Shown one piece after another: positions 157 to 14,826 of a DNA stretch of 24,310 nucleotides. How positions within the stretch are numbered: the first letter of the stretch is position 1; every line of letters starts with the position of its first letter. Both the position numbers and the translations under genes were made by a program. The DNA lies in the IMG/VR virus record IMGVR_UViG_3300032293_002087, positions 1 to 24,310 of that record. One strand, 5' to 3'. Source of the stretch: a virus. A model generated the notes under the pieces. The model had not been told where the DNA came from, did no database searches, and was given only the letters and a program-made list of their open reading frames with translations.

Positions 157-555
157 ATGAATAATTCTGATTATAATGATTTTGATAACTGGCAAAACGG
201 GGATGAGAATGAGATGAATAATCCCAATAACTGGTTCCCCAAGGGCGGATTCTTCTATTATGGAACTGGAAGTGATGACTTCAAGAAGATGTGGAACAAC
301 ATCAACAAGGGCGAAGACCCAATGGAGTATATGAAGAAATACTTCCATATGGATGACATCAAGCCGCATAAAAAGCCTCGTAAGGTTTCACCCAATCAAA
401 AGAATGAACCGAAGCCTGCAGTCTTTACTCAAGAAGACTACATGAAGCTAATCGAGATTCGTGGTTATCTAAACATCACGGAACAACACGCTCACGTAAA
501 AGCTCTTGATAAACTTCTCAATCAAATTCAAATTATTTGGAAGGATAGCAAATGA
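157..555 (+). CDS. Hypothetical protein, Asn/Asp-rich N-terminus
   Basis: A 132-residue protein starting at ATG 157 behind a good ribosome-binding site (AAAGGA at about 147-152). Residues 1-30 are rich in Asn, Asp and Trp and look disordered. A Lys/Pro-rich linker lies near residues 68-88. The last 45 residues look helical (FTQEDYMKLIEIRGYLNITE onward) and could form a small helical hairpin. There is no signal peptide or membrane segment. Its stop overlaps the start of the next gene (ATGA, 552-555), which implies translational coupling. I do not recognise the family and assign no function. Confidence 0.75.
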   Translation: MNNSDYNDFDNWQNGDENEMNNPNNWFPKGGFFYYGTGSDDFKKMWNNINKGEDPMEYMKKYFHMDDIKPHKKPRKVSPNQKNEPKPAVFTQEDYMKLIEIRGYLNITEQHAHVKALDKLLNQIQIIWKDSK

Positions 556-764
556 CATACATTCCAGGTTCGGCATATAGCGCAGGGTTCAAGGCTAGAA
601 TGGAAGGCACTCCAAGAGACATGCTTCCTTCAGACATGAATAATGTTTATATCCAGGAATGGCTTGTTGGGTGGGATGATGCCCATAAAAAGATTATTGC
701 AGAAGCAAGAGAAAATGCTGGCTGCAATAAACCAAAGTGCTGTAAAAACTTTATTCAAGATTAA
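552..764 (+). CDS. RMF/CrpP-like small protein
   Basis: A 70-residue protein starting inside an ATGA overlap with the gene before it. The pattern AYSAGFKARMEG near residues 9-20, followed by EWLVGWDDAH near residues 36-45, follows the layout of ribosome modulation factor and its phage and plasmid relatives (G-x3-A..G, then W-x2-GW-x2-A). Bacterial RMF binds 70S ribosomes and drives 100S dimer formation; RMF-like genes are common in phages, usually with unknown role. The tail holds three cysteines (CNKPKCC) that could bind metal or form a disulfide. It ends 3 bases before the convergent gene on the other strand. The family call is by pattern only and the function is inference. Confidence 0.6.
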   Translation: MTYIPGSAYSAGFKARMEGTPRDMLPSDMNNVYIQEWLVGWDDAHKKIIAEARENAGCNKPKCCKNFIQD

Positions 765-767
765 TTA

Positions 768-2471
768 TCAACCGATGTGAACACCGGATAATTTTCTTAA
801 CAGTTCATGATGTTCAGGGTCCACATGTGCCAACATGGTATCCTGAACATCTTTACTTATGCTAAAGACTTCAGAATCTCCAGGTGGTCTACTGTAATTT
901 GCTCTATAACCAACCTGATGTCTTCCGATTTCTTTGCCCATGGTTTTTGGCCCTTGGCCCCACTGTTGGCCCATAGTAACTTCTGGTGCTTGCGCTTGCG
1001 GATTGACAAAATGAAATCTTCCCGTATTTGAATTTTTAATTAAGGTTCTTCCTGAAGTTTTTTGTCTTAACTTGGCTGCGCTTTCTTCTCTACCTTTAAC
1101 TATTACTGGATCCTGGGATTGCTCAATTGCTGTTTTGGCTTGTCTAAATCTTTCTTCAGCGCCCTTTGGGTCACCCTTTGAAAAAAGAAATCTTTGTCCA
1201 CCCGGTATGGCTTTTGCCCATGCACTCATGGCATCTGGCACAGTATCTAATAGATGTTGCATCAAGCTAACGGGCATGACTCTTTTACTACTTGCACCAC
1301 GGGTTTTTACTTCAACTGGTTCGATTTTTAATTTGTCATCCGCTATTGAAGGGACGTGAACATCTCCACCCTTTCCAGATCTATCTGTAGCACTTACCGG
1401 TGAAATAATTCCTTGGTGAACAGTATCCATGTAACCATGAATATGTGGGGTGTCTTTCAGTTCATGGTATGCCTTGGCATGAAACATCATTTTTGCTTCA
1501 TACTCGGCAGCATGACCATGTCTTCCGCCGCCGATTGATTCTCCATGCAATCTGACAAGTTCAGCCATGTTTTCTCTGAATCTTTGTTCATGCGTAGTTC
1601 CAGGGCTGACTGGAGGTCTTATATAACCTTTTTTCTGCGCTTTTGCTTTTGCTTTTTTTGCTTCTTCTGTGTCTGTCAAGACTGCCACTGAAGGTTTCCC
1701 AGATGAATCATTTGCATCATTGTATTGATCGATTGTAGATTCATTTTCTTCATTCAAAATATCCAAACCCTCAAGACCAAATTCTTCCATAAAATTCTTT
1801 GCAGGATATGTTATCCAATACAGATCGCTCTCACCGTTATCTCTTTTTGTTCGTATTCCCATTCTTCCAGATGGATTTCTTCTCTGGAACCTCTGAAGAT
1901 ATTTTTTTGTTGCACTGTCTGGAAGATTTTTCCAGGCTTTTGCTGATTTGAATTGATCGAATTCCTCTTGTCCCATATCGAACATTTCGACAGGTCCTCT
2001 GCTAAACATGGGTGATGGAAGTGGTTTGTCATAACCAGCTACCTGACCTGTGTTCTTGAAGTCTTGTGCAACCCCTAGGTCTCCAGGGCTTGTACCTGAA
2101 GCCATACCTCCACCTGCACCTGCTCCCATATCCTCTGTCAATAAAAACTTAGAGGTTAGATATCCCTCGACAAAGAATACGAATTGATCGAAGGGTATTC
2201 CAAATGTCTTGGCTTCTTCCGAGAATAGTTGAAAGGCAGAACTATAGCTTGAGAGACGAGATTTTGTTATTGTTGGTGGGATCTCTTCGAATATTTTTTT
2301 CATCTTTATGACGAAATATTCAAATGGATCTATGCTGCTCTCTGGCTTCTTAAGATTACCACTTGAGTCAATTACACCTGACTGATAAGCCCTGAAGCTT
2401 GTGTATGGTGCTGCAATGGCTTGGGCAAAATCTGCGATTGAAAAAGTAGGTATAAATGACGGGGATCCCAT
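768..2471 (-). CDS. Putative virion-associated protein with PD-(D/E)XK-like C-terminal region
   Basis: A 567-residue protein. Residues 1-113 look like a folded domain (FSIADFAQAIAAPYTSFRAY at the start) that ends in FLLTE, followed by a Gly/Ala/Met-rich linker (about 114-128). Residues 310-400 match the layout of PD-(D/E)XK nucleases: E323 in GHAAEYEAK on a helix, D370 in GKGGDVHV, and E387-V-K389 in EPVEVKTRG, close to the VEVKTR motif of YraN-type proteins. The rest is charged and of low complexity. The start at 2471 lacks a Shine-Dalgarno sequence, but a late-promoter-like ACTAAATA ends 6 bases upstream. It is last in a run of genes that are probably late. The virion role comes from that context; the nuclease reading is by eye and activity is unproven. 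Confidence 0.8.
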   Translation of the reverse strand: MGSPSFIPTFSIADFAQAIAAPYTSFRAYQSGVIDSSGNLKKPESSIDPFEYFVIKMKKIFEEIPPTITKSRLSSYSSAFQLFSEEAKTFGIPFDQFVFFVEGYLTSKFLLTEDMGAGAGGGMASGTSPGDLGVAQDFKNTGQVAGYDKPLPSPMFSRGPVEMFDMGQEEFDQFKSAKAWKNLPDSATKKYLQRFQRRNPSGRMGIRTKRDNGESDLYWITYPAKNFMEEFGLEGLDILNEENESTIDQYNDANDSSGKPSVAVLTDTEEAKKAKAKAQKKGYIRPPVSPGTTHEQRFRENMAELVRLHGESIGGGRHGHAAEYEAKMMFHAKAYHELKDTPHIHGYMDTVHQGIISPVSATDRSGKGGDVHVPSIADDKLKIEPVEVKTRGASSKRVMPVSLMQHLLDTVPDAMSAWAKAIPGGQRFLFSKGDPKGAEERFRQAKTAIEQSQDPVIVKGREESAAKLRQKTSGRTLIKNSNTGRFHFVNPQAQAPEVTMGQQWGQGPKTMGKEIGRHQVGYRANYSRPPGDSEVFSISKDVQDTMLAHVDPEHHELLRKLSGVHIG

Positions 2472-2477
2472 ATATAA

Positions 2478-2485
2478 TATTTAGT
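2478..2485 (-). promoter_or_regulatory. Possible T4-type late promoter (ACTAAATA)
   Basis: On the minus strand the octamer reads ACTAAATA, two bases from the T4 late consensus TATAAATA, 6 bases before the ATG of the 567-residue protein. It overlaps the stop codon of the upstream gene. The same variant recurs before other genes in the window. If T4 spacing applies, transcription would begin almost at the start codon. Confidence 0.35.
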
Positions 2486-2879
2486 TTTCAGTGGTCTGCA
2501 ATTTTCTGTCAACCCTGGGATCGGTATTCAATTGTTCGTAGGATACCTCTGGTATATCCTTTACCTTGAAATCAAGAAAAACGAGAAAAGACTTCAGATA
2601 GGAATGAAGTCTCGGTTCAAGCTTGAAAAACAATATTCTTGTTGAATTTTCTTCTCCAAAAACATTTTTCAATATTATAAGATGATTTATTATCAGTCTT
2701 TCGCGGATTGATTTCAGAGTTTTGTGTTTATGGACTTTTTGCAAAAGTCTCTTGATGTACTTTATTCTCTTCAGATCATCTATAAATTCATTTTTACCGG
2801 AACATTCCGGATTAAAATAACATCTCTGACAGAATTCTAAAAAATTTTCTTCTGTCAGAGGTGCTAATTTTTTATCCAT
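2481..2879 (-). CDS. Conserved small helical protein of T4-like phages (hypothetical)
   Basis: A 132-residue protein. I place the start at ATG 2877-2879 (MDKKLAPLTEENF) because the longer open frame would run into the upstream gene, which stops at 2890. It has a Cys pair near its start (CQRCYFNPEC), then a helical core with YIKRLL, RERLIINHLIILKNVFGEE and ILFFKLEPRLHSYLKSFLVF. This pattern, with an invariant-looking NH..I..NVFG segment, resembles a small uncharacterised family I associate with marine T4-like myoviruses. The function is unknown. It lies between two genes judged late and is probably cotranscribed with them. The family resemblance is from memory. Confidence 0.75.
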   Translation of the reverse strand: MDKKLAPLTEENFLEFCQRCYFNPECSGKNEFIDDLKRIKYIKRLLQKVHKHKTLKSIRERLIINHLIILKNVFGEENSTRILFFKLEPRLHSYLKSFLVFLDFKVKDIPEVSYEQLNTDPRVDRKLQTTEN

Positions 2880-2889
2880 TTTTAGTTCT

Positions 2890-3432
2890 TCACATGCAAC
2901 CACAGTCCGGGCCACCATTTAATGTAGAATCTTCACTTGGTGCAATAACGATATTCAATTTCTTCAAATGGTTTGGTTGCTTCGTCATTGTGACGACCAA
3001 AGCGAGTGAGTGTCCGAGTTTTTCCTTGATTCCGTCACCTTGGGAGAACCCGGTCTTATTTACATCATCATAAGGGTTTTGTCCGTATACGCCGAGATAT
3101 GGGCTTCCGTATTGAACCAGTTCAAATACATTTGGACCCTCTTTCAGTTCACCCTTGATTTCAAAATCAAAGCCAAAGTGGTTTAGCTTTTGCTTTACAA
3201 CAGCCATTACGCCATATGGATCAATGTACTCTCTTGTACCGATTCCATAGAGCATTGCATTGATTGCGTCCAAGGAATGTGGGAGTCTTACGTTGAATGT
3301 ACCCTTGTCTGTGAGGGCACTTCCCTTGTCCTGGTGTTGGGGATCACCGATGTAAAGACCTCCACCGAAGGTGTGTTCGGGGGCATTTTCCTGCAAAACG
3401 CTGATTTTGTTTAATAGTTGTTTAAATTTCAT
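2890..3432 (-). CDS. Putative capsid-associated protein with CTS-like N-terminus
   Basis: A 180-residue protein starting at ATG 3432 with AAGGAA 6 bases upstream. The N-terminus MKFKQLLNKISVLQE is a short basic amphipathic helix ending in L-Q-E, the form of a T4 capsid-targeting sequence followed by a gp21 protease site (L/I-x-E). The remainder looks like one folded domain, with LPHSLDAINAMLYGIGTREYIDP near residues 50-72 and a Cys-rich end (GGPDCGCM). I recall similar 'INA..GIGT.EYIDP' segments in uncharacterised proteins of marine T4-like phages. There is no membrane segment. Packaging in the head is inference from the N-terminus and the neighbours. Confidence 0.8.
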   Translation of the reverse strand: MKFKQLLNKISVLQENAPEHTFGGGLYIGDPQHQDKGSALTDKGTFNVRLPHSLDAINAMLYGIGTREYIDPYGVMAVVKQKLNHFGFDFEIKGELKEGPNVFELVQYGSPYLGVYGQNPYDDVNKTGFSQGDGIKEKLGHSLALVVTMTKQPNHLKKLNIVIAPSEDSTLNGGPDCGCM

Positions 3433-3444
3433 GATGTTCCTTAT

Positions 3445-3452
3445 TATTTAGT
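3445..3452 (-). promoter_or_regulatory. Possible T4-type late promoter (ACTAAATA)
   Basis: On the minus strand, ACTAAATA lies 12 bases before the ATG at 3432, with the ribosome-binding sequence AAGGAA in between. It overlaps the stop codon of the upstream gene, so part of the match could come from coding constraint. It is two bases from the T4 late consensus. Confidence 0.35.
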
Positions 3453-4596
3453 CATGAATTTTTCTGTCCATGAGACCGTAAAGATTCGGATTGTATTTTA
3501 CTTCATTCAAAGAATTCAGTGTTTTTGCAGATATACTTTCTGTAACCTTTTTCCACTTTCCACCTTTTGACTTATAGCACTTAGCAGCCCAGGCATTTGC
3601 ATATGCGCTTGGGTACACGTCAAATTTTTCTTTTGCCTGTTGAATGCAAGAACTCCATTTTTTTGGATCTTTTGCTTTGTTTTTCTTTGCCTCAAGAAGT
3701 TCAGATTCTTCTTTCAACATTGAAGAAACCGATTGCGTGCTCCATGTCTTGCATGCCCAGTAACGTGCTTTCCACTTTGGTCCAGGATTATCGCAATTAT
3801 GTCTGGCTCTAAAATTTCTGCGACGGTCTGGATCGTCTCTCTTGATTTCCATGTTTGGGTCACCAAAATTTACCTTGACTACATTGCCTTTGTCATTTTT
3901 GACGTAGACCTTGTATTTTTTGACATCCCCGCGCATTATCTTGTTTAATTTTACTTTTTTATCTTGCTCCTCATAAACTTCAATCTTATCACCGTATTCA
4001 TTGTATGAAGTTTCTTCGAGATTATCAACAAACCCCATTGTTGTCTCTGGAACAAAGTTTTCATTTATCTCGCAGCCGTTTTCGTCGCTAAAATTTACAA
4101 GGATGTTATCTGTTCCTTCTTCGATATAATTGACTTCAAGAAGCTGTCCAGATTCATTTATGATGATATCGCAGGGAAGCAGATCCTTTGCCTTGATGGG
4201 ATCAAAGGACATGGTAAAAACTGAACTTGCTCCTTCAACCAAAAAGTTGTCAAAGCTTTCTTTTACCTCAGTGACTCCTGTCTTTACAAAGATAGGCTTC
4301 TTTCCTTTGCTGTCACCAAGACCTTTTTTACCTCTTCCGGCTTTTTTCTGTGCTGCTCTCTTCTTACGAACAAATGCTGCAATCTTTGCCTTGCCGAGCT
4401 TCTTTGCCTTCTGTCTACTGAGGCAGGCTGCATAGGCTTCGCCTTCTTCGGCATCTCCGCATTTTCCGACTCTCTCGCCTTTGGTGTTGTAACGATCCCA
4501 CCCCGGACCACCACCAGCTGATTCCTTGTTGAACCATTTCCCCAATCCTGAATTGGAGAATACTTTTTCTAACAAAAATTTGGTAGTCTTATGCAT
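3448..4596 (-). CDS. Putative internal head protein: modular, basic, Cys-rich, CTS-like N-terminus
   Basis: A 382-residue protein of several small modules. Residues 1-10 (MHKTTKFLLE) have the form of a capsid-targeting helix with an L-x-E cut site. Residues 28-95 are a basic Cys/Gly module (GPGWDRYNTKGERVGKCGDA, then AYAACLSRQKAKKLGKAK) like small DNA-binding-like modules of many phages. After L-V-E121 comes a beta-rich stretch (about 128-175). Residues 220-285 carry the common myovirus pattern KKYKVYVKND..VNFGDPNM..RRRNFRARHNCDN..KARYWACKTW. After L-L-E302 a last module has WSSCIQQAKEKFDVYPSAYA..KGGKWKK. Its start overlaps the upstream stop (TAATG). Basic, Cys-rich modules between possible gp21-type sites suggest a cleavable DNA-associated core protein; this is inference. 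Confidence 0.8.
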   Translation of the reverse strand: MHKTTKFLLEKVFSNSGLGKWFNKESAGGGPGWDRYNTKGERVGKCGDAEEGEAYAACLSRQKAKKLGKAKIAAFVRKKRAAQKKAGRGKKGLGDSKGKKPIFVKTGVTEVKESFDNFLVEGASSVFTMSFDPIKAKDLLPCDIIINESGQLLEVNYIEEGTDNILVNFSDENGCEINENFVPETTMGFVDNLEETSYNEYGDKIEVYEEQDKKVKLNKIMRGDVKKYKVYVKNDKGNVVKVNFGDPNMEIKRDDPDRRRNFRARHNCDNPGPKWKARYWACKTWSTQSVSSMLKEESELLEAKKNKAKDPKKWSSCIQQAKEKFDVYPSAYANAWAAKCYKSKGGKWKKVTESISAKTLNSLNEVKYNPNLYGLMDRKIHD

Positions 4597-6980
4597 TATT
4601 TCCAGTCCTTGTTTTGCTTCTCGCCTTTTTTGTGTCCATTGTCGGATCTGTTTTCGGAACGATCACGTAGACGCAAATTGTGTGTTTTATTTGATCCACC
4701 ATTTCTCAATGGTTTCTTATGATCTATATCTTTTCTTGATCCTTTTTTGACCAAACCTTTTTTGATCATCAGTTCTCTGGCAGCTGTTCTTGCAGCTCTT
4801 TCCTTCCGCTGCTTTGGCTTTCCATGGTAATTTCTGTATTCTTTTTTATAATTTCTTTTTGCTTCCTCTGCCAAGGCATTCGAAAGGATTCCTTCGAATA
4901 TTGGAACCAAAAACTCAGGATCGCGGTTGGTTTTCTCACTTATTGAGTTCAGAAGGGGAATCAAGCAACCTTGAAGCAAGTCTTCCTCTACCAACAACTG
5001 CTCACCGTAGTGCTTGATCAATGAGGCTTCCGAATCACTAATGAGATTCATGGTATTTAGCTGAGTCAGAAGGAAATTGTTTGTCAACGACTCAATTAAC
5101 ATCTCATTCAAGATTAAATAGTTTTCACCTAGAATTTGATTTGATATCTTTTCAGTCGTATTGACAGGAATCTTGAATGTTTTCTTGCCAATCGTAACAT
5201 AATTGTATTCGATTGCGTTGATATCCTCTGGCTTGAATCCAGGCAGCAAGCTTGCATTGATATCAAATGTTAGACTTTGCATTGCATTGTTTACGATGAC
5301 CCCGAGAGGATCTATCTTTTTTCTGTCAACATACAATGCCTTTATTCCGGGAGCTTTTGTTTCCTTAGCCTCAACCATGGTTCTCCATTTTTGGAGATTT
5401 CCAATTGCTGCTTTTTTATAAGAAGAGATGTTATCATTATCGATAACTTCTTCTGTTTTCTTTACGTTTATTTTCGCTGTCTTCGAAAGCTCATCGATAT
5501 AATCATCGCTCAACGCAAATATACCATTTGCGGTGATTACGTGGGTGGGAGACATCTTCGGATCAGTGAGACCATCACCACGCAAAGAAGTCTTCATGAC
5601 ATTTGAAGCAAGCCTCTTGAGGAAGTCATTGTTCTTTCCGCCCCTGAAAAGCTGTTGACCAGCTTTCTTCAATGAAGATTCATATGCACTGATCGAAACA
5701 GCAGGATTGATGTTTCCATCTCTATCCACAACTGTTCCAAGACTTTCACCATTTGCTGAAGTGACCTCGGTAGCCTGCATCTGTGCCATGAGATCCGGGT
5801 CGCTCAGTATTTGAGAGATGGCTTGATCTGGCAAAAGCTTATCGGAAAACTGATTTCCAATCCCCTCAACATCATCTAGCATTTTTCTGACAGCTGGGTC
5901 GCTTTTAGCTGTTACCGGATCCAAGATTGTTTTTGCGATTGAGTTTCCTATTATTCCTTTAATCAATTTTCCGTTTTGATTCAAAGAATTGTTGCTGATG
6001 CTGAATTCGCCACCAGCGGAAATTTTAAACTTGTATTCACCACATTCAAGTTCAGGAGCTCCCTCTGAATACATGCTGCTGTTTCCCATCTCTATGCTGG
6101 AAACTAGATTTTGAATGCATGCATCTCCGATTTGTGAAAGAATCTTCGAAGCCTGCAAGAACGCAGCCTTTGTGAAGTCCAGAGAGCTTCCGCTAGAAGC
6201 TACCAAGGTTTGCATTTCTTGGTCGCTTGCCCCGGCCTTTATCTTCGCAACAAACAACAGAGCATTCAAAACTTGTTGATTGTATGGAGTATTTGATAAT
6301 GTATTGATACCGAATTTCGTACTTAAGTTTTCAAACGTAATGTTATCAAAATCGCGGCCAGGCATTGGTTTGCGCATGGCATCGAAGTATTCTTTTCTGA
6401 TATCAGGTGGCATGGATGCCAATTGTTCCGGAGTCATCTCCGTCATGGCATTCATTATTTCTTTTTTGGATAGTCTCTTGGCTTTGGGTGCTGCTTTCTT
6501 TTCCTGACCCTCTTCTGGCTTCTCTTCAGCGCCCTTTTCCTTTTCCTTTTCCTTGGCAGCAGGAGCTTTCTTTTCTTCTTCTTTTGGCTTTTGCTTTACA
6601 TCGCCAAATAAAAGCTTTGATGCTCTGGTTTGCTCAAAGTTTGGATCTCCAGTGACCTGCCGAGCCTCTTCCTCGGTCATGGTTTCACCCTTGCCAATCT
6701 TTGTATGGATATTCTTATTAAAAGAATCTTTAAAGATTAGCTGAACGTTTCCGGATCTGGTCTTTACTGCTATTACTTCCTTTACGAGTTCTGCCTTCGG
6801 CTTCTTCTCTCTGGGAACTTGTTTTGCTCTCTCTGCGCGCTTTCTGGCTGCATCCTTGGCCTTATCGCTTGTTGCTGACGACTTGGCTCTGTCTTTTGAC
6901 AAAGCTTCACCAGTTGTTCTAAAAGAATCTTCGGTGCTGCGAGAGGCTTCGGTTAAACGTAAAAGGTCCTTAAAGTTCAT
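4596..6980 (-). CDS. Large putative virion protein with CTS-like N-terminus and HNH-like C-terminus
   Basis: A 794-residue protein. Residues 1-11 (MNFKDLLRLTE) fit a capsid-targeting helix ending L-T-E, followed by A. Residues 12-170 are Lys/Glu/Ala-rich and look disordered (KEKEKEKGAEEKPEEGQEKK). Residues 175-690 appear folded and largely helical, without a motif I know. The last 95 residues are very basic and hold DIDHKKPLRNGGSNKTHNLR then SENRS: D753-H754, GG, N768 and N777, the layout of an HNH (beta-beta-alpha metal) motif without zinc cysteines. Similar basic C-termini occur in short proteins of many T4-like phages. CATAAATA ends 6 bases before the ATG and no clear Shine-Dalgarno is present. 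The next gene overlaps its stop. Nuclease activity is unproven. Confidence 0.85.
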   Translation of the reverse strand: MNFKDLLRLTEASRSTEDSFRTTGEALSKDRAKSSATSDKAKDAARKRAERAKQVPREKKPKAELVKEVIAVKTRSGNVQLIFKDSFNKNIHTKIGKGETMTEEEARQVTGDPNFEQTRASKLLFGDVKQKPKEEEKKAPAAKEKEKEKGAEEKPEEGQEKKAAPKAKRLSKKEIMNAMTEMTPEQLASMPPDIRKEYFDAMRKPMPGRDFDNITFENLSTKFGINTLSNTPYNQQVLNALLFVAKIKAGASDQEMQTLVASSGSSLDFTKAAFLQASKILSQIGDACIQNLVSSIEMGNSSMYSEGAPELECGEYKFKISAGGEFSISNNSLNQNGKLIKGIIGNSIAKTILDPVTAKSDPAVRKMLDDVEGIGNQFSDKLLPDQAISQILSDPDLMAQMQATEVTSANGESLGTVVDRDGNINPAVSISAYESSLKKAGQQLFRGGKNNDFLKRLASNVMKTSLRGDGLTDPKMSPTHVITANGIFALSDDYIDELSKTAKINVKKTEEVIDNDNISSYKKAAIGNLQKWRTMVEAKETKAPGIKALYVDRKKIDPLGVIVNNAMQSLTFDINASLLPGFKPEDINAIEYNYVTIGKKTFKIPVNTTEKISNQILGENYLILNEMLIESLTNNFLLTQLNTMNLISDSEASLIKHYGEQLLVEEDLLQGCLIPLLNSISEKTNRDPEFLVPIFEGILSNALAEEAKRNYKKEYRNYHGKPKQRKERAARTAARELMIKKGLVKKGSRKDIDHKKPLRNGGSNKTHNLRLRDRSENRSDNGHKKGEKQNKDWK

Positions 6981-7000: not shown

Positions 7001-7588
7001 TTAATCCCCTGTTTGGGCCAATGGATTAAATAGAATAAAATTTTTATGAGATTTGGCCTTTCCTCGAGCAACCTTATACATGGCCTTTGCATCTAAATTG
7101 TTTAATTTTGCAAATTGATTTATGTTATCCACCACAAAAATTTGCTTTGTTTCCGTATGCTGAAATGTAGCTTGCTTTGCTATTGCAATCTTTACCGGGG
7201 CTTTTTTCTTTGCTTTTACATGAGACCCCTCAGTTTCTTTAACCGCCCTCAGTTCAGATGCAGTCCACCCTTTGTAGGTTTTTCTCTTTCCATTCAAAAG
7301 TTCGCATATTTTTACCGGAGTAAGCCCATGTTGTTTTCCAAATTCTGTCATGCTTTGGAAAAAAACTTTTTCCCCAGTAGATACGTTTTTAAGCCAATAT
7401 CCGTTTAGAACATCCTCGGGCGGAAGCCATGTCCAGTATCTTCCCTCTTGCCTGAACATTCCACCATTTTCACTTACGAACATCTGTCGTCTTTTTGCAG
7501 CTTTTGAATTGTCATTCATCTGCATCCAGAGCTTACTTCCCCGGCTATTTACAGCTTGTTCAAGCGTTCTCAGTTCTTTGTATTCCAT
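7001..7588 (-). CDS. Protein with two NUMOD-like DNA-binding repeats
   Basis: A 195-residue basic protein. Two segments align with each other and with NUMOD-type helix-turn-helix modules found beside homing endonuclease domains. Residues 64-111 contain TGEKVFFQSMTEFGKQHGL..ICELLNGKRKTYKGW; residues 141-187 contain TETKQIFVVDNINQFAKLNNL..MYKVARGKAKSHKNF. A Lys-rich linker (KAKKKAPVK) joins them. No GIY-YIG, HNH or LAGLIDADG catalytic motif is seen, so it may be a stand-alone DNA-binding protein derived from such elements. The start at 7588 is supported by AGGA 7 bases upstream and overlaps the end of the exonuclease gene by 29 bases, implying coupling to it. The DNA target and role are unknown. 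Confidence 0.8.
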   Translation of the reverse strand: MEYKELRTLEQAVNSRGSKLWMQMNDNSKAAKRRQMFVSENGGMFRQEGRYWTWLPPEDVLNGYWLKNVSTGEKVFFQSMTEFGKQHGLTPVKICELLNGKRKTYKGWTASELRAVKETEGSHVKAKKKAPVKIAIAKQATFQHTETKQIFVVDNINQFAKLNNLDAKAMYKVARGKAKSHKNFILFNPLAQTGD

Positions 7589-8228
7589 GTATTTTCCTGT
7601 ATTTTTCTATTGTTTGTTTCAATTTTTTAACATGGTTTATCGGCTTACCCTCGAATACCTGTTTCAAACCATCTTCGCAAGAGATTAAAATTGCGTAATT
7701 TTCCACAATTATTCCAGTTCTTTCTTGGAACATCAAGGCATATGCAGAAGCCTGAAGAAAATAGTTTTCAATGTCTGACTTGCGCTTTTCCTTGCTGCTT
7801 GCCTTGAAATCTATGATTGAAAGCTTCCCGTCATATTCAGCGATGCAATCTGTTCTTCCTGCCAAACCAAGGGTTTTAGACCATAGTGGAGTTTCGATTG
7901 CCAATATGTTGTTTATCTTGTCTATTTCTGGTTGCAGCTGATTAAACAAGAATTTAAAATTAGGCAACATATTTTCATAATCTAGACTCTCATTGTTTAA
8001 ATAAGATTCTATTAGACTATGAAATTTAGTGCCACGGGATGTAACTCTACGGCTTTCTTCTGGGTTGTTTTTTCTCCATTCAGCAAAAAACTGCTGTTTT
8101 TCCCAGCCCATTACAGTGGTTACACTTGGAAATATACCACCGGGGGTTTCGTAAAACCTTTTCCCGTCGATGGATACTTCTTTTAATTCATTTTCTAAAT
8201 TTACATGATTATGTACAAAATTTTGCAT
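7560..8228 (-). CDS. PD-(D/E)XK exonuclease (RecB/Cas4-like)
   Basis: A 222-residue protein, a usual size for phage single-domain PD-(D/E)XK exonucleases. Key elements in order: RGTKFHSLIESYL (helix with motif-I-type H and E, about residues 65-77), LAGRTDCIAEYDGKLSIIDFKAS (about 122-144, giving the catalytic D, then D-x-K) and IENYFLQASAYALMF, the QxxxY motif of RecB-family nucleases. It probably resects or trims DNA ends during replication and recombination, alongside UvsX and the resolvase. It may be transcribed from its own sigma-70-like promoter in the gap upstream, and the NUMOD-repeat gene overlaps its end. The superfamily assignment is firm; the biological substrate is inferred. Confidence 0.88.
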   Translation of the reverse strand: MQNFVHNHVNLENELKEVSIDGKRFYETPGGIFPSVTTVMGWEKQQFFAEWRKNNPEESRRVTSRGTKFHSLIESYLNNESLDYENMLPNFKFLFNQLQPEIDKINNILAIETPLWSKTLGLAGRTDCIAEYDGKLSIIDFKASSKEKRKSDIENYFLQASAYALMFQERTGIIVENYAILISCEDGLKQVFEGKPINHVKKLKQTIEKYRKIHGIQRTENA

Positions 8229-10266: not shown

Positions 10267-12074
10267 TGGCCTCTTAAACGCTTTAATTGATTTTCAATAT
10301 CTTTTTTGCTTCCTGGTGCAATGCTTCCAGGAACATTTTGTGACATAAAACTTTTTATAAGAGAAGGATATTGTGATTCGATTTTTGGTGGATTGAGTTT
10401 AGCAATTTCTTCTGGAGTTTGTTGAGTTAATTCCAAAGGTGTTCCTGTCATAAATCTGCCGCTTTGTGTAGCATTTGCAGCAGCTGCTTGTTCTGGACTC
10501 ATCATACCACCGACATTGAATGGCCCAGAACTTGCCTTTGCAACACCTCTCGAAGAAGCTCTCATGTCTCCACCATATGTCGCATCTTTATTTGCTTGTG
10601 TCTGAAGATTTTTTTGTTTCATTTCATCAGCAATTTTAGCAATCATTGCTGGGGTAGCTGTTCTAGAAACCTCTTGACCAACTCTTTCAGCTTTTGGAGT
10701 ATTTCTATATCGATCCAATTCCATCTGGGACCGATCCATTTCTCTTTCCAATTCACCCGCTTTTTGAGCCATTTGAGTGTTTTGGGCTGAATAAGCCTGG
10801 TTCATCTGGTCTGCACTCAATGCTGCTTGTCTTGCCTGTTCGCTACCATAACGACCGGCACCTGCAAGACGGCTGACTAGTGAACTGTCGTCCTTGTTGA
10901 AAGGATTGTAGTTTCTTCCTGTCTGTCTCTTGAATTCACCATATGTCATGCTTGTGCCCTGGATTATTTTATCATCGGGCATAGCAACCACTTCACCGGG
11001 CTTTGTTGCATATCTTGCACCAATTGTAGCCTGTGTTATGTTTCCGTATTCGGTTCTTGGTCTATTATATCCAGATCTCTCATTGAACTTTCTGAGTTGT
11101 TCTTGAGCCTGTCTGGCAACTTCAATTGAAGCAGCGTAATCTTTAGCCTTGTCACTCTGTGATTCAATGGCAGTTGGCTGTGCTCCACCCGGTGCCGGTG
11201 GTCCTTCAACTTCTACAGTGATTGATTTTTTCAAATCATCGCGTTGTTTTCTGGCTTCGGCAGCTTGGTCTTGCAAACGTTCTCTTTCACCACGTGTTGC
11301 TATATTAGCAGCCAGAAGTCTTGCATTTTTTTCTTCGCGTTCAGCTCGGTTGGAAGCTCTTTCTTCGGGAGTTCTTCCACCTCTATCTCCCTTTGGCATT
11401 CCCCTGGCTTTTCTTAAATCAACCAAAATATCTTTGTCACCGGGTTCAACATCTATTCCACGCATAGATAATGCGGCAACTCTTGATGGGCCCGGAGCAG
11501 TTCCGGTAGAGGGAGCTGCAAGAGATGAACTTGGAGTTGCTGGTGCTGCTGTTGGTGCTGCTGCAAGAGATTCGGGAGCCTGCGTGGCTGGGGCCTGCAT
11601 GATTGGAGAAGAAACAGCTTGGTCTTCTTCTTCTTCCTCGTCTTTTTTACTTGTTTTTTTATTTTGTGCTAATTGCTGCGCCAATTGTGCTTGTGCTTGT
11701 GCGTACACAGATGAGAGATCTTGTGCTACCAATTCATTCAGCAACTTTTTTTTATTCAATGTGAATAAATTTTCTGTGATATTCTCATAGTGGCCTGTCA
11801 AATCTGGACTGGCTTCATTGAGAACATTTTTGTGCTGATCGAGAAGAGTATTTACACTCTTAACCATTCTGTTGTCGATAGAAGAAACAAACTCCTTATA
11901 AATTTCTTGGGAGTTATTTTTGGGGGTATAAAGGTAATCTGTGGATTTTAAAACATTACCAATACTTTCCTTGAGACTGGTCTTCTTGACCTCCGTCTTT
12001 GGTAAGGAATTGGTGTTTCTGCCCAAAAAGTTCTTGACTTCCCAATAAAATTGTCTATCTTGTTTATTATCCAT
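10263..12074 (-). CDS. Large coiled-coil/low-complexity putative virion protein
   Basis: A 603-residue protein starting at 12074 (MDNKQDRQFYWEVKNFLGR). Residues 1-130 look helical. A Gln/Ala run (AQAQAQLAQQLAQ) and an acidic run (KKDEEEEEDQ) follow, then an Ala/Pro/Ser linker (about 155-205). Residues 210-300 are charged and helical, probably coiled coil (AEREEKNARLLAANIATRGE). Residues 400-480 (ARQAALSADQMNQAYSAQNT, then a LEREMDRSQMELDRYR stretch) form another likely coiled coil. No catalytic motif or membrane segment is seen. Its stop overlaps the start of the 665-residue gene. No clear Shine-Dalgarno precedes it; TCTAAATA lies 10 bases upstream. An elongated structural protein is plausible, but the family is not recognised. 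Confidence 0.8.
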   Translation of the reverse strand: MDNKQDRQFYWEVKNFLGRNTNSLPKTEVKKTSLKESIGNVLKSTDYLYTPKNNSQEIYKEFVSSIDNRMVKSVNTLLDQHKNVLNEASPDLTGHYENITENLFTLNKKKLLNELVAQDLSSVYAQAQAQLAQQLAQNKKTSKKDEEEEEDQAVSSPIMQAPATQAPESLAAAPTAAPATPSSSLAAPSTGTAPGPSRVAALSMRGIDVEPGDKDILVDLRKARGMPKGDRGGRTPEERASNRAEREEKNARLLAANIATRGERERLQDQAAEARKQRDDLKKSITVEVEGPPAPGGAQPTAIESQSDKAKDYAASIEVARQAQEQLRKFNERSGYNRPRTEYGNITQATIGARYATKPGEVVAMPDDKIIQGTSMTYGEFKRQTGRNYNPFNKDDSSLVSRLAGAGRYGSEQARQAALSADQMNQAYSAQNTQMAQKAGELEREMDRSQMELDRYRNTPKAERVGQEVSRTATPAMIAKIADEMKQKNLQTQANKDATYGGDMRASSRGVAKASSGPFNVGGMMSPEQAAAANATQSGRFMTGTPLELTQQTPEEIAKLNPPKIESQYPSLIKSFMSQNVPGSIAPGSKKDIENQLKRLRGQ

Positions 12075-12084
12075 GGCTGTAAAA

Positions 12085-12092
12085 TATTTAGA
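12085..12092 (-). promoter_or_regulatory. Possible late promoter (TCTAAATA), divergent pair
   Basis: On the minus strand, TCTAAATA is one base from TATAAATA and lies 10 bases before the ATG at 12074. It sits almost back to back with a plus-strand CATAAATA at 12097-12104, so this short gap would drive both directions. Confidence 0.45.
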
Positions 12093-12096
12093 TTTT

Positions 12097-12104
12097 CATA
12101 AATA
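12097..12104 (+). promoter_or_regulatory. Possible late promoter (CATAAATA), divergent pair
   Basis: On the plus strand, CATAAATA is one base from the T4 late consensus and lies 10 bases before ATG 12115 of the HNH gene. If it is used, transcripts cannot include the alternative ATG at 12073, which favours the shorter start. Confidence 0.45.
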
Positions 12105-12114
12105 CTTAAAAGGT

Positions 12115-12600
12115 ATGAAGAAACAGGTACTCTTGCTCAATCAAGACAATACCCCCCTGAATATCATTACCGTCAGTAAAGCTTATAAACTGATGTCCCG
12201 TGACAAGGTTTGGGGGGATGAAACCAACGAGTGTTATGAAGTCGCCTCCATATCAAAAATTGTCAAAATTCCAAAGGTTTTGATTCTTAAGTATTATGTA
12301 AAATTGCCTTATAAAAAGGCATCCGCATCCAGACAAAATATCCTTCGTAGAGATCATTATTGCTGCCAATACTGCGGTATCGATATGACCCTAAAAGAGG
12401 CTACAGTGGATCACGTAATACCCAAATCCAAAGGTGGGGCATCCTCTTGGGTCAATATGGTTGCAGCCTGCAGAGATTGCAATTTGGCCAAGGGAAACCG
12501 AACGCCAAAGGAAGCAAAAATGGAACTTAAAAACAAGCCAAAGGAGCCATCCTATGGATTCTTGTTTGAAACCATGCTAATTAGTTTTAGGAAGAAATAA
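12115..12600 (+). CDS. HNH endonuclease
   Basis: A 161-residue protein from ATG 12115. The motifs are those of a standard zinc-containing HNH nuclease: SRQNILRRDHYCCQYCG, TVDHVIPKSKGG, SSWVNMVAACRDCNLAKGNR and TPKEAKMEL. The two CxxC pairs (YCCQYCG and CRDCN) bind structural zinc; DH in TVDHV is catalytic. The start MKKQVLLLNQDNTPLNIITV fits the usual N-terminus of the family (LVLN.D.TPL). A longer form from ATG 12073 is possible, but that codon shares CATG with the start of the divergent gene. Such proteins can be free-standing mobile endonucleases or have roles in packaging or replication; this one interrupts no recognisable gene. It is followed one base later by the zinc-ribbon gene. Confidence 0.9.
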   Translation: MKKQVLLLNQDNTPLNIITVSKAYKLMSRDKVWGDETNECYEVASISKIVKIPKVLILKYYVKLPYKKASASRQNILRRDHYCCQYCGIDMTLKEATVDHVIPKSKGGASSWVNMVAACRDCNLAKGNRTPKEAKMELKNKPKEPSYGFLFETMLISFRKK

Positions 12601-13609: not shown

Positions 13610-14704
13610 TCAGTATCTTGGGCTATAAACTTTCATCGATCTTAAAGCCTGTCTGGCGGCTCTCTGTTCTGATTCTTTTCTTTCTTCATCACTCATGTCT
13701 CGGTCTGCAAGAACCGACTGTATACCCAATGATACAGCTGTACCGGGACCTGGAATATAATCTGCTAGTTCAGAGGCTCCCTCCAAGCCAGCTCCCACAT
13801 AATCTCCCGCTTGGGTTCTTTGTGTCATGGCTGCTATAGAAGCTGCGGTTCCGATAACTGGCAACATTTTTAAAGCAGCTTTTCCTACTGCTTTTCCTGT
13901 TGATTTAACTGCTTGTGTAGGATCAGTTATGCCAGAAACATTAATTCCCGAACCACTTTTAGTTCTAAATGCTTTTACACCTTGATCAATTGCTTTATCT
14001 GTGACTTTTCTTAGATCACTATCCCTAGCCAAAACATCCAAATCTCTAGTTTCTGGAAATCTACCGCCAACGGTTGATCTTCCACCCCACTCGGTGGTTT
14101 GTGGACCGACAGTACCATAAGGTGTTACTGTAGATCTACTTTGAATTACTGGCTTTATTCTAGGATCATCTATATCAATTTTTTTTCCATCAACTTCTAT
14201 TGGAAATTCTGTAACTTTTTTGGGTTCTCCCAAAGCTCCAGTTGTTTCATCTTTTAAAGCAAACCCAGGTTCCCATCCTCTACCAATTTTTTTATTTCCA
14301 GTTATAGGATTTGTTTCAGCAACAATTCCTGGTGTAACGTATTGCATAGGTCCTTTGCTACGAGTAATTGCTACTCTTGTTAAAGACGGTACTCTATAAT
14401 TTGGATCGGCTTCAATTTTTGTTGCCACATCTTTAAATATTTCTTTATATGATTCTGGGTTCCATTCAATATCGGGAACCAATCTTCTTGTTGACACTGT
14501 TCCGGTGACAGTTTGTGCATTTGCTGGAATATGTCCAGCCGAAGTTATATCTGTATATTCTGCTGCTTTTGCTGGATCTATAAAAACACTCAATCCCTGT
14601 GGTTTAATTTTTTCTCCAGATACTAATCTTGCAGCGGTTCCTGGATCTGTTTTATGATAGAATGGAACCACACCCTCAAGTAAAAATTGTTTAAATCTCA
14701 GCAT
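13610..14704 (-). CDS. Putative head-packaged effector: CTS-like N-terminus, ADP-ribosyltransferase-like domain, hydrophobic C-terminus
   Basis: A 364-residue protein. MLRFKQFLLE (1-10), then G, is a close analogue of T4 capsid-targeting sequences, with L-L-E as a gp21-type site. Residues 14-90 resemble the core of diphtheria-toxin/PARP-type ADP-ribosyltransferases: FYHKTDPGTAARLVSG (H17), then LSVFIDPAKAAEY (Y50), with several possible catalytic Glu after it (E80, E84, E88). Residues 90-265 have no known motif. Residues 266-340 are Gly/Ala-rich and hydrophobic (KAALKMLPVIGTAASIAAM, IPGPGTAVSLGIQSVL) and could contact membrane. A perfect TATAAATA ends 5 bases before the ATG and a terminator follows the stop, so it looks monocistronic and late. 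T4 Alt, a packaged ADP-ribosyltransferase, is the model; the domain call is tentative. Confidence 0.75.
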   Translation of the reverse strand: MLRFKQFLLEGVVPFYHKTDPGTAARLVSGEKIKPQGLSVFIDPAKAAEYTDITSAGHIPANAQTVTGTVSTRRLVPDIEWNPESYKEIFKDVATKIEADPNYRVPSLTRVAITRSKGPMQYVTPGIVAETNPITGNKKIGRGWEPGFALKDETTGALGEPKKVTEFPIEVDGKKIDIDDPRIKPVIQSRSTVTPYGTVGPQTTEWGGRSTVGGRFPETRDLDVLARDSDLRKVTDKAIDQGVKAFRTKSGSGINVSGITDPTQAVKSTGKAVGKAALKMLPVIGTAASIAAMTQRTQAGDYVGAGLEGASELADYIPGPGTAVSLGIQSVLADRDMSDEERKESEQRAARQALRSMKVYSPRY

Positions 14705-14744: not shown

Positions 14745-14752
14745 ATTATATG

Positions 14753-14826
14753 CTCCTCGGGCTGGAATCGAACCAGCGACATAGAAGTTAACAGCTTCTC
14801 GCATCTACCTACTGAGCTACCGAGGA
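14753..14826 (-). tRNA. tRNA-Asn (anticodon GTT)
   Basis: A 74-base cloverleaf. The acceptor stem is TCCTCGG/CCGAGGA with discriminator G. The anticodon stem is AGAAG/CTTCT with loop CTGTTAA (anticodon at 14790-14792). The variable loop is ATGTC, and the T arm is GCTGG-TTCGATT-CCAGC. The D arm GCTC-AGTAGGTA-GATGC carries one extra base: GAGC appears as GA-T-GC, leaving a bulged T. CCA is not encoded. It begins 7 bases after the NrdJ stop, so it is probably processed from the same RNA. Overall similarity to bacterial tRNA-Asn is clear, but the D-stem bulge is unusual. Confidence 0.9.

Follow-up and report, generated by a model that had tools for sequence, protein, structure and literature searches.

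Our analysis of a virus contig from a T4-like phage (IMG/VR record IMGVR_UViG_3300032293_002087) points to a two-part phage effector, in which a carrier of the T4 gp61.1 type (residues 1 to about 241) precedes an exchangeable C-terminal nuclease of the PD-(D/E)XK type, the protein being packaged and ejected; we hold this reading with a probability of roughly 0.6. Best supported within it is that an uncultivated T4-like phage group swaps rapidly diversifying nucleases of the PD-(D/E)XK type behind a carrier that stays fixed. Compared at the level of sequence, the gene and its relatives show a constant/variable architecture, precise recombinational exchange, a conserved catalytic signature and no cassette-linked immunity gene.

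The gene is encoded on the minus strand (ATG at 2471, stop codon at 768-770) of the window, by which we mean the whole 24.3-kb stretch of DNA that was analysed (24,310 nucleotides). Homologues of its product are found downstream of the DUF7207 gene in related contigs, and the features discussed below are located in Table 1.

Table 1. Location of the gene, its parts and its neighbours in the window
Feature	Position	Strand	Remarks
Whole gene, constant carrier plus predicted C-terminal nuclease cassette	768..2471	-	open frame, 567 aa
70-aa gene following the 768-2471 gene and its homologues in all 63 cassette-bearing loci	552..764	+	opposite strand
Exchangeable cassette, residues 242-567, predicted PD-(D/E)XK-type nuclease domain	771..1748	-	DNA breakpoints; identity comparison; domain model
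E387-V-K389 codons, putative (D/E)XK motif	1305..1313	-	387 D/E in 59/63; 389 K in 57/63
D370 codon, acidic residue of the putative PD position	1362..1364	-	D in 63/63
E323 codon, predicted core helix	1503..1505	-	E in 48/63
Candidate prohead-protease site 2, L239-N-E241, carrier/cassette border	1749..1757	-	
Small alpha/beta middle domain, residues 157-224	1800..2003	-	AF2 pLDDT mostly 69-79 from residue 161
N-terminal helical domain, residues about 9-127, T4 gp61.1 family (phrog_2086)	2091..2447	-	
Candidate prohead-protease site 1, L111-T-E113 then D-M	2133..2141	-	
DUF7207 / phrog_407, upstream partner gene	2481..2918	-	PF23837 E 1e-32; synteny anchor
Three co-directional genes with capsid-targeting-like N-termini	2890..6980 (2890-3432, 3448-4596, 4596-6980)	-	

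According to Pfam, the window encodes a family-B DNA polymerase, a RecA-like protein, a DnaB-type helicase, ThyX and a B12-dependent RNR; at the DNA level, no match of the window to phage records was found. The neighbouring DUF7207 gene is common mainly to cyanophages, its closest relatives being those of Methylophilales phages. The carrier matched a single genome contig, from a Chitinophagaceae MAG, which is too little for a host assignment. A preliminary description of this DNA had placed the gene among late genes, a setting that the surroundings do not establish: the genes past the adjacent operon serve replication and nucleotide metabolism. Five sites resembling late promoters (NATAAATA) occur in the window, no more than chance would give by a rough estimate, and this evidence was set aside. 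An ordinary PD-(D/E)XK exonuclease (7560-8228, minus strand; PF12705 E 1e-7, phrog_298 E 1e-64) is separate from and unrelated to the cassette, and the product of 7001-7588 (minus strand), in which only the NUMOD/HTH parts of homing endonuclease families match (PF22083 and part of phrog_2081), is perhaps the remnant of a homing enzyme. An HNH endonuclease gene (12073-12600, plus strand; PF14279 E 5e-16) adjoins a gene for a zinc-ribbon protein, and a tRNA-Asn (gtt) gene is found at 14752-14826 (minus strand).

Single-sequence searches with residues 285-450 returned no relative from viral contigs, searches of the phage database with the cassette returned nothing credible, and the 567-aa protein had no Pfam match at E <= 1 and thereby no MuF domain; direct searches found one cut-off copy. 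The DUF7207 gene was used as an anchor and gave 33 loci, nearly all with a homologue of the product adjoining DUF7207 or further downstream. Among these loci, only L012 could be aligned with the window protein over its full length, the others stopping at around residue 230-320. A search with profile A1 matched 102 relatives, the best 80 of which were kept, and the 113 ORFs from all loci yielded 74 non-redundant proteins. These comprise 63 with a C-terminus of more than 80 aa, 10 complete proteins without a cassette, and L002, which is cut by the contig end. The complete relatives without a cassette (L004, L017, L047, L073, L085, L086, L090, L101, L102 and L103) are followed by the usual opposite-strand genes. 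By BLAST, the 63 C-terminal regions fall into seven clusters of 31, 11, 11, 4, 3, 2 and 1 members; Pfam, PHROGs and PADLOC searches with them gave nothing credible, only scattered weak matches. A cassette profile retrieved 11 loci from viral contigs, 10 of them on contigs already in the set and the eleventh being L124, and none of its 20 candidates in genome contigs was confirmed.

Identity between carriers says nothing about identity between cassettes (Spearman 0.02, P 0.38, 1953 pairs). Carriers were at least 90% identical in 28 of the 1953 pairs, with cassettes below 30% identity in 17 of the 28 and at or above 80% in 11, counts that are not independent because near-identical rows remain in the 63-member set, which includes the window's own C-terminal region. 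Six groups combine carriers that are 91-99% identical with cassettes that are 17-26% identical (L050/L055/L061, L117/L118, L049/L083, L006/L007/L095, L062/L098 and L012/L016/L045), and the cassettes of L055 and L117 are 94% identical on carriers of 50% identity. At the DNA level, L050 and L055 match at 97.6% over 4737 bp to just past the carrier/cassette border, cannot be aligned within the cassette, and are again 93.9% identical beyond the stop codon. The same pattern of a break at the border and resumption at the stop was found in most of the 13 pairs tested on DNA; flanking matches were less complete in L006/L007/L095, and those in L076/L053 and L056/L025 had a lower identity. All seven cassette clusters share one in-frame position. 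Judged from these breakpoints, the C-terminal end is shown to be swapped precisely, as a unit, behind a constant carrier of about 240 residues, an arrangement in line with the general polymorphic-toxin pattern of a conserved N-terminal part and an exchangeable, here putative, C-terminal effector.

Selfish, homing-type cassettes, spreading through cleavage of gene copies that lack a cassette, would also account for cassettes that have moved between diverged carriers and for the cassette-less alleles, which make up 10 of the 73 complete proteins, and PD-(D/E)XK homing enzymes are known. Such an origin is nevertheless improbable. The clusters replace one another exactly, at that single position and up to the stop codon; a cassette guarding its own site would not be expected to undergo repeated replacement, and searches of genome and viral contigs turned up no free-standing relatives of the window's cassette.

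The same opposite-strand 70-aa gene starts 2-39 bp past the stop codon in all 63 cassette-bearing loci, which leaves the cassettes without an immunity gene of their own; this 70-aa gene also follows most of the cassette-less genes, and in the pairs compared on DNA the homology picks up again right at the stop codon. In this respect the family departs from the polymorphic-toxin pattern, in which an immunity gene linked to the toxin end would be expected downstream. The producing phage must then escape self-harm otherwise: the fusion may be inactive until cut, the phage's own DNA may be modified, or this DNA may be without target sites. The simplest version of the last option would be avoidance of a 4-bp palindrome, and among the 16 such palindromes counted in the window none was clearly avoided, counts with which longer or non-palindromic sites remain compatible.

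The preliminary description had proposed a PD-(D/E)XK core on the basis of E323 (HAAEYEAK), D370 (GGDVHV) and E387-V-K389 (EPVEVKTR), and these residues do occupy the named positions of the 567-aa frame. Its characterisation of the protein as low-complexity holds in part, for a Gly/Ala-rich stretch at about residues 116-150. Conservation of the key residues was borne out for D370 (63/63), for an acidic residue at position 387 (59/63) and for K389 (57/63), and is weaker for E323 (48/63). In the alignment of the 63 cassettes (A4), most rows of which are only 11-24% identical to the window's cassette, D370 is the sole invariant column, and the other columns conserved at 90% or more are K389 and one glycine only. 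Position 387 is E in 27, D in 32 and N in 4 cassettes, and position 389 is K in 57 and G in 6.

These values were compared with a shuffle control in which columns were permuted within families and the sequences then re-aligned (25 replicates). No D column of the shuffles exceeded 48 and no K column 40, whereas the real cassettes, re-aligned by our own script, gave 62 and 58 of 63. Glycine and proline columns of the shuffles reached up to 57-63 by chance; high conservation alone is therefore insufficient, and the conserved glycine column of the cassettes carries no meaning. Glycine replaces the lysine at position 389 in six of the 63 cassettes (L009, L015, L016, L019, L083 and L095), and the helix glutamate E323 is absent from 15; accordingly, some cassettes are perhaps inactive or rely on residues that have moved. 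Taken further, these losses would suit a C-terminal domain that is a decayed nuclease fold, serving only in DNA binding or as structural filler. We regard this as very improbable, as an aspartate in 63/63 and an acidic residue in 59/63 could scarcely persist through such turnover if catalysis were not selected for, and the shuffles fall short of the observed D and K values. In profile comparisons, the window's group links to two other groups of its own cluster, through one of those to clusters 1 and 2, and through these to cluster 3, while several groups stay unlinked; because the links are incomplete, they do not extend a single fold to all cassette groups.

Structure prediction is in keeping with the motif. 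The AF2 model of the full-length protein is poor overall (mean pLDDT 59, pTM 0.40), and the alignment behind it (A2) has the (D/E)XK region misaligned in five rows. A domain model of residues 278-567 based on 11 sequences reached a mean pLDDT of 72 and a pTM of 0.68. It contains a helix at 318-338 with E323, strands at 371-377, 380-389 (ending in E-x-K) and 393-398, a helix at 401-415 and a strand at 428-431, which is the alpha-beta-beta-beta-alpha-beta order that the preliminary description had named as a check on its proposal. HinP1I (2fkc) is the closest fold to this region in either model, and the match is weak: Z 5.2 over 179 residues with an rmsd of 5.3 for the full-length model, and Z 4.9 over 167 residues with an rmsd of 4.9 for the domain model, where a Z below 8 may, by the caution attached to the tool, reflect merely a common arrangement. 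Other long matches are mostly PD-(D/E)XK enzymes (MspI, with the full-length model only, DpnI, SwaI, D212, Hjc and SPARDA nucleases); the domain model also matched the unrelated structures 6wh4 and 5mlc over more than 100 aligned residues. Foldseek returned no match at E <= 0.001 for either model, and profiles A2 and A3 had no match among PDB sequences at E <= 10, the link to HinP1I and MspI thus being a weak fold match only. With Z scores this low and no Foldseek match at that threshold, the fold evidence is supporting and not decisive, and the PD-(D/E)XK assignment is carried by the motif evidence. Taken together, we consider a PD-(D/E)XK nuclease fold likely for the cassette.

Residues 9-127 of the carrier match phrog_2086 (E 1e-5) and phrog_18642 (E 6e-5), and a family HMM run against a small ORF set detected gp61.1 of Acinetobacter phage ZZ1 (E 4.4e-10), gp456 of phiM12 (E 4.2e-14) and a Melnitz protein. 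These profile matches assign the N-terminal domain to the T4 gp61.1 family; the window protein shares this domain with T4 gp61.1 and differs in its length, the three members examined being short (141-203 aa) and without a cassette. The nearest fold to the middle domain is the GCN2 C-terminal domain (Z 5.3 over 61 residues), and its matches as a whole comprise this domain and parts of tRNA-splicing endonucleases (Z 3.4-5.3).

Two candidate sites for a prohead protease were located in the carrier, T4 gp21 being described as cutting after L/I-X-E (PMC9026906). At the first, [LI]xE[DE][MI] followed by a Gly-rich stretch is retained in 72 of the 73 complete relatives, with LLEDT in the remaining one. 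At the border, an [LI]xE triplet within residues 205-275 is present in 63/63 cassette-bearing and 3/10 cassette-less proteins, a count of little weight because, roughly estimated, more than half of all 70-residue stretches would contain such a triplet by chance, and because the majority of the cassette-less proteins stop ahead of this point or close to it. The first 30 residues of the protein contain no [LI]xE, and its N-terminus has no T4-type 10-residue targeting sequence, in contrast to T4 head proteins with a capsid-targeting sequence, whose short N-terminal peptide ends in L/I-X-E.

The genes upstream of DUF7207 are nevertheless suggestive of the head. Three of them, on the same strand and almost touching, carry [LI]xE among their first 18 residues in 65/66 (2890-3432), 50/50 (3448-4596) and 34/34 (4596-6980) distinct homologues, and T4 capsid-targeting sequences are described as short starts holding L/I-x-E (PMC9026906, PMC9958956). 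Unlike the cassette, all three are conserved over their full length in relatives. A head-delivery route is physically possible, since engineered fusions of T4 IPIII, or of its targeting sequence, with EcoRI and with staphylococcal nuclease were packaged and delivered (PMC9026906). On this indirect evidence, packaging of the carrier-cassette protein in the virion is plausible, and we lean slightly towards its delivery from the head. For gp61.1 itself, no proteomic report was found in the literature searched; it is listed as a conserved hypothetical protein (PMC3468402), and the available part of a cyanophage virion study (PMC3037559) holds no usable statement on it.

One of these three, the 794-aa protein of 4596-6980 (minus strand), begins MNFKDLLRLTE, is conserved in relatives and matches phrog_4590 (E 2.5e-19) at its C-terminus, where it has an HNH-like look; it is possibly a second packaged nuclease. 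The 364-aa product of 13610-14704 (minus strand) begins MLRFKQFLLE, which fits a T4 targeting peptide with E at position 10; TATAAATA stands about 6 bp before its ATG, and its C-terminal stretch is common to phage peptidase and endolysin families.

The swappable nuclease might instead be used inside the infected cell, unpackaged, its carrier docking near the replisome while it degrades host or superinfecting DNA. The gp61.1 homologues of phiM12 and ZZ1 adjoin or stand near the primase gene, replication genes occupy much of the window, and the carrier lacks a classic targeting sequence, all of which would suit such a role. It is less easily reconciled with tightly packed co-directional neighbours for which 149 of 150 distinct homologues begin in a capsid-targeting-like manner, or with the retention of L/I-x-E-[D/E]-[M/I] in all but one carrier, and we judge intracellular use rather unlikely.

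Under the preferred reading of a packaged and ejected effector, the protein would enter the prohead together with its co-directional, capsid-targeted neighbours, and the prohead protease would cut after L/I-x-E and so free the nuclease. Ejected with the phage DNA, the nuclease would then cut unprotected DNA, which could belong to a rival phage, to a plasmid or to the host chromosome, and a swap of cassettes could alter the target range or permit escape from inhibitors. More tentatively, the family may constitute a capsid-delivered, protease-released arsenal of polymorphic nucleases whose cassettes are traded within one phage population behind the fixed carrier, in which zymogen control, with activity arising only once the prohead protease has cut, replaces the immunity gene, and which is aimed at competing phages or mobile DNA on entry. 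So high a turnover of one catalytic domain is suggestive of conflict, be it with competing phages, with mobile DNA or with counter-measures of the host, and not of simple recycling of host DNA.

Within the titles and abstract openings of the open-licence literature, we found no paper describing this carrier-cassette family, which does not prove that there is none. The closest parallel in architecture is with MuF toxins, which, according to PMC5576092, have a constant phage N-terminal part and variable C-terminal toxins, more than half of them nucleases, with short forms that lack the extension and a proposed delivery by phage. The present family likewise has a constant N-terminal part, variable C-terminal ends and extension-less forms. 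It differs in that its carrier is of the T4 gp61.1 and not the MuF type, in that the genome is T4-like and has replication genes of its own, and in that its cassettes keep one catalytic signature. A small ORF, proposed to confer linked immunity, follows 89.4% of 191 MuF toxin genes in the same source, against 0/63 here.

As for the delivery route, T4 IPI-III and Alt are targeted to the prohead core, are cleaved after L/I-X-E and leave the head along with the DNA, and related phages differ in them (PMC9026906). The same route is proposed here, together with variation between related phages, but a folded carrier of about 240 aa would take the place of the short propeptide, and a predicted nuclease would be the cargo. 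Phage polyvalent proteins are described in PMC5512222 as multidomain effectors of genome conflicts, many of them predicted to be packaged and injected; the present proteins carry instead one effector domain each, swapped whole at a fixed border. HinP1I and MspI provide the nearest solved folds of the cassette region, with weak Z scores, yet without a sequence match, and no linked methyltransferase was seen among the adjacent genes.

Polymorphic effectors with swapped C-terminal ends have precedents in bacteria and in the MuF proteins of temperate phages. The same evolutionary pattern is seen here in T4-like phages that have replication genes of their own, on a different carrier, with a single catalytic signature and without an immunity gene. 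Should the cassettes be delivered along with the DNA, they would represent a direct and testable form of warfare by injected nucleases between phages, or between phage and plasmid, and would show how T4-like phages can vary the cargo of their heads. The carrier could also mark new nuclease specificities in metagenomes. The exchange of ends amid constant surroundings looks as if these viruses traded weapons.
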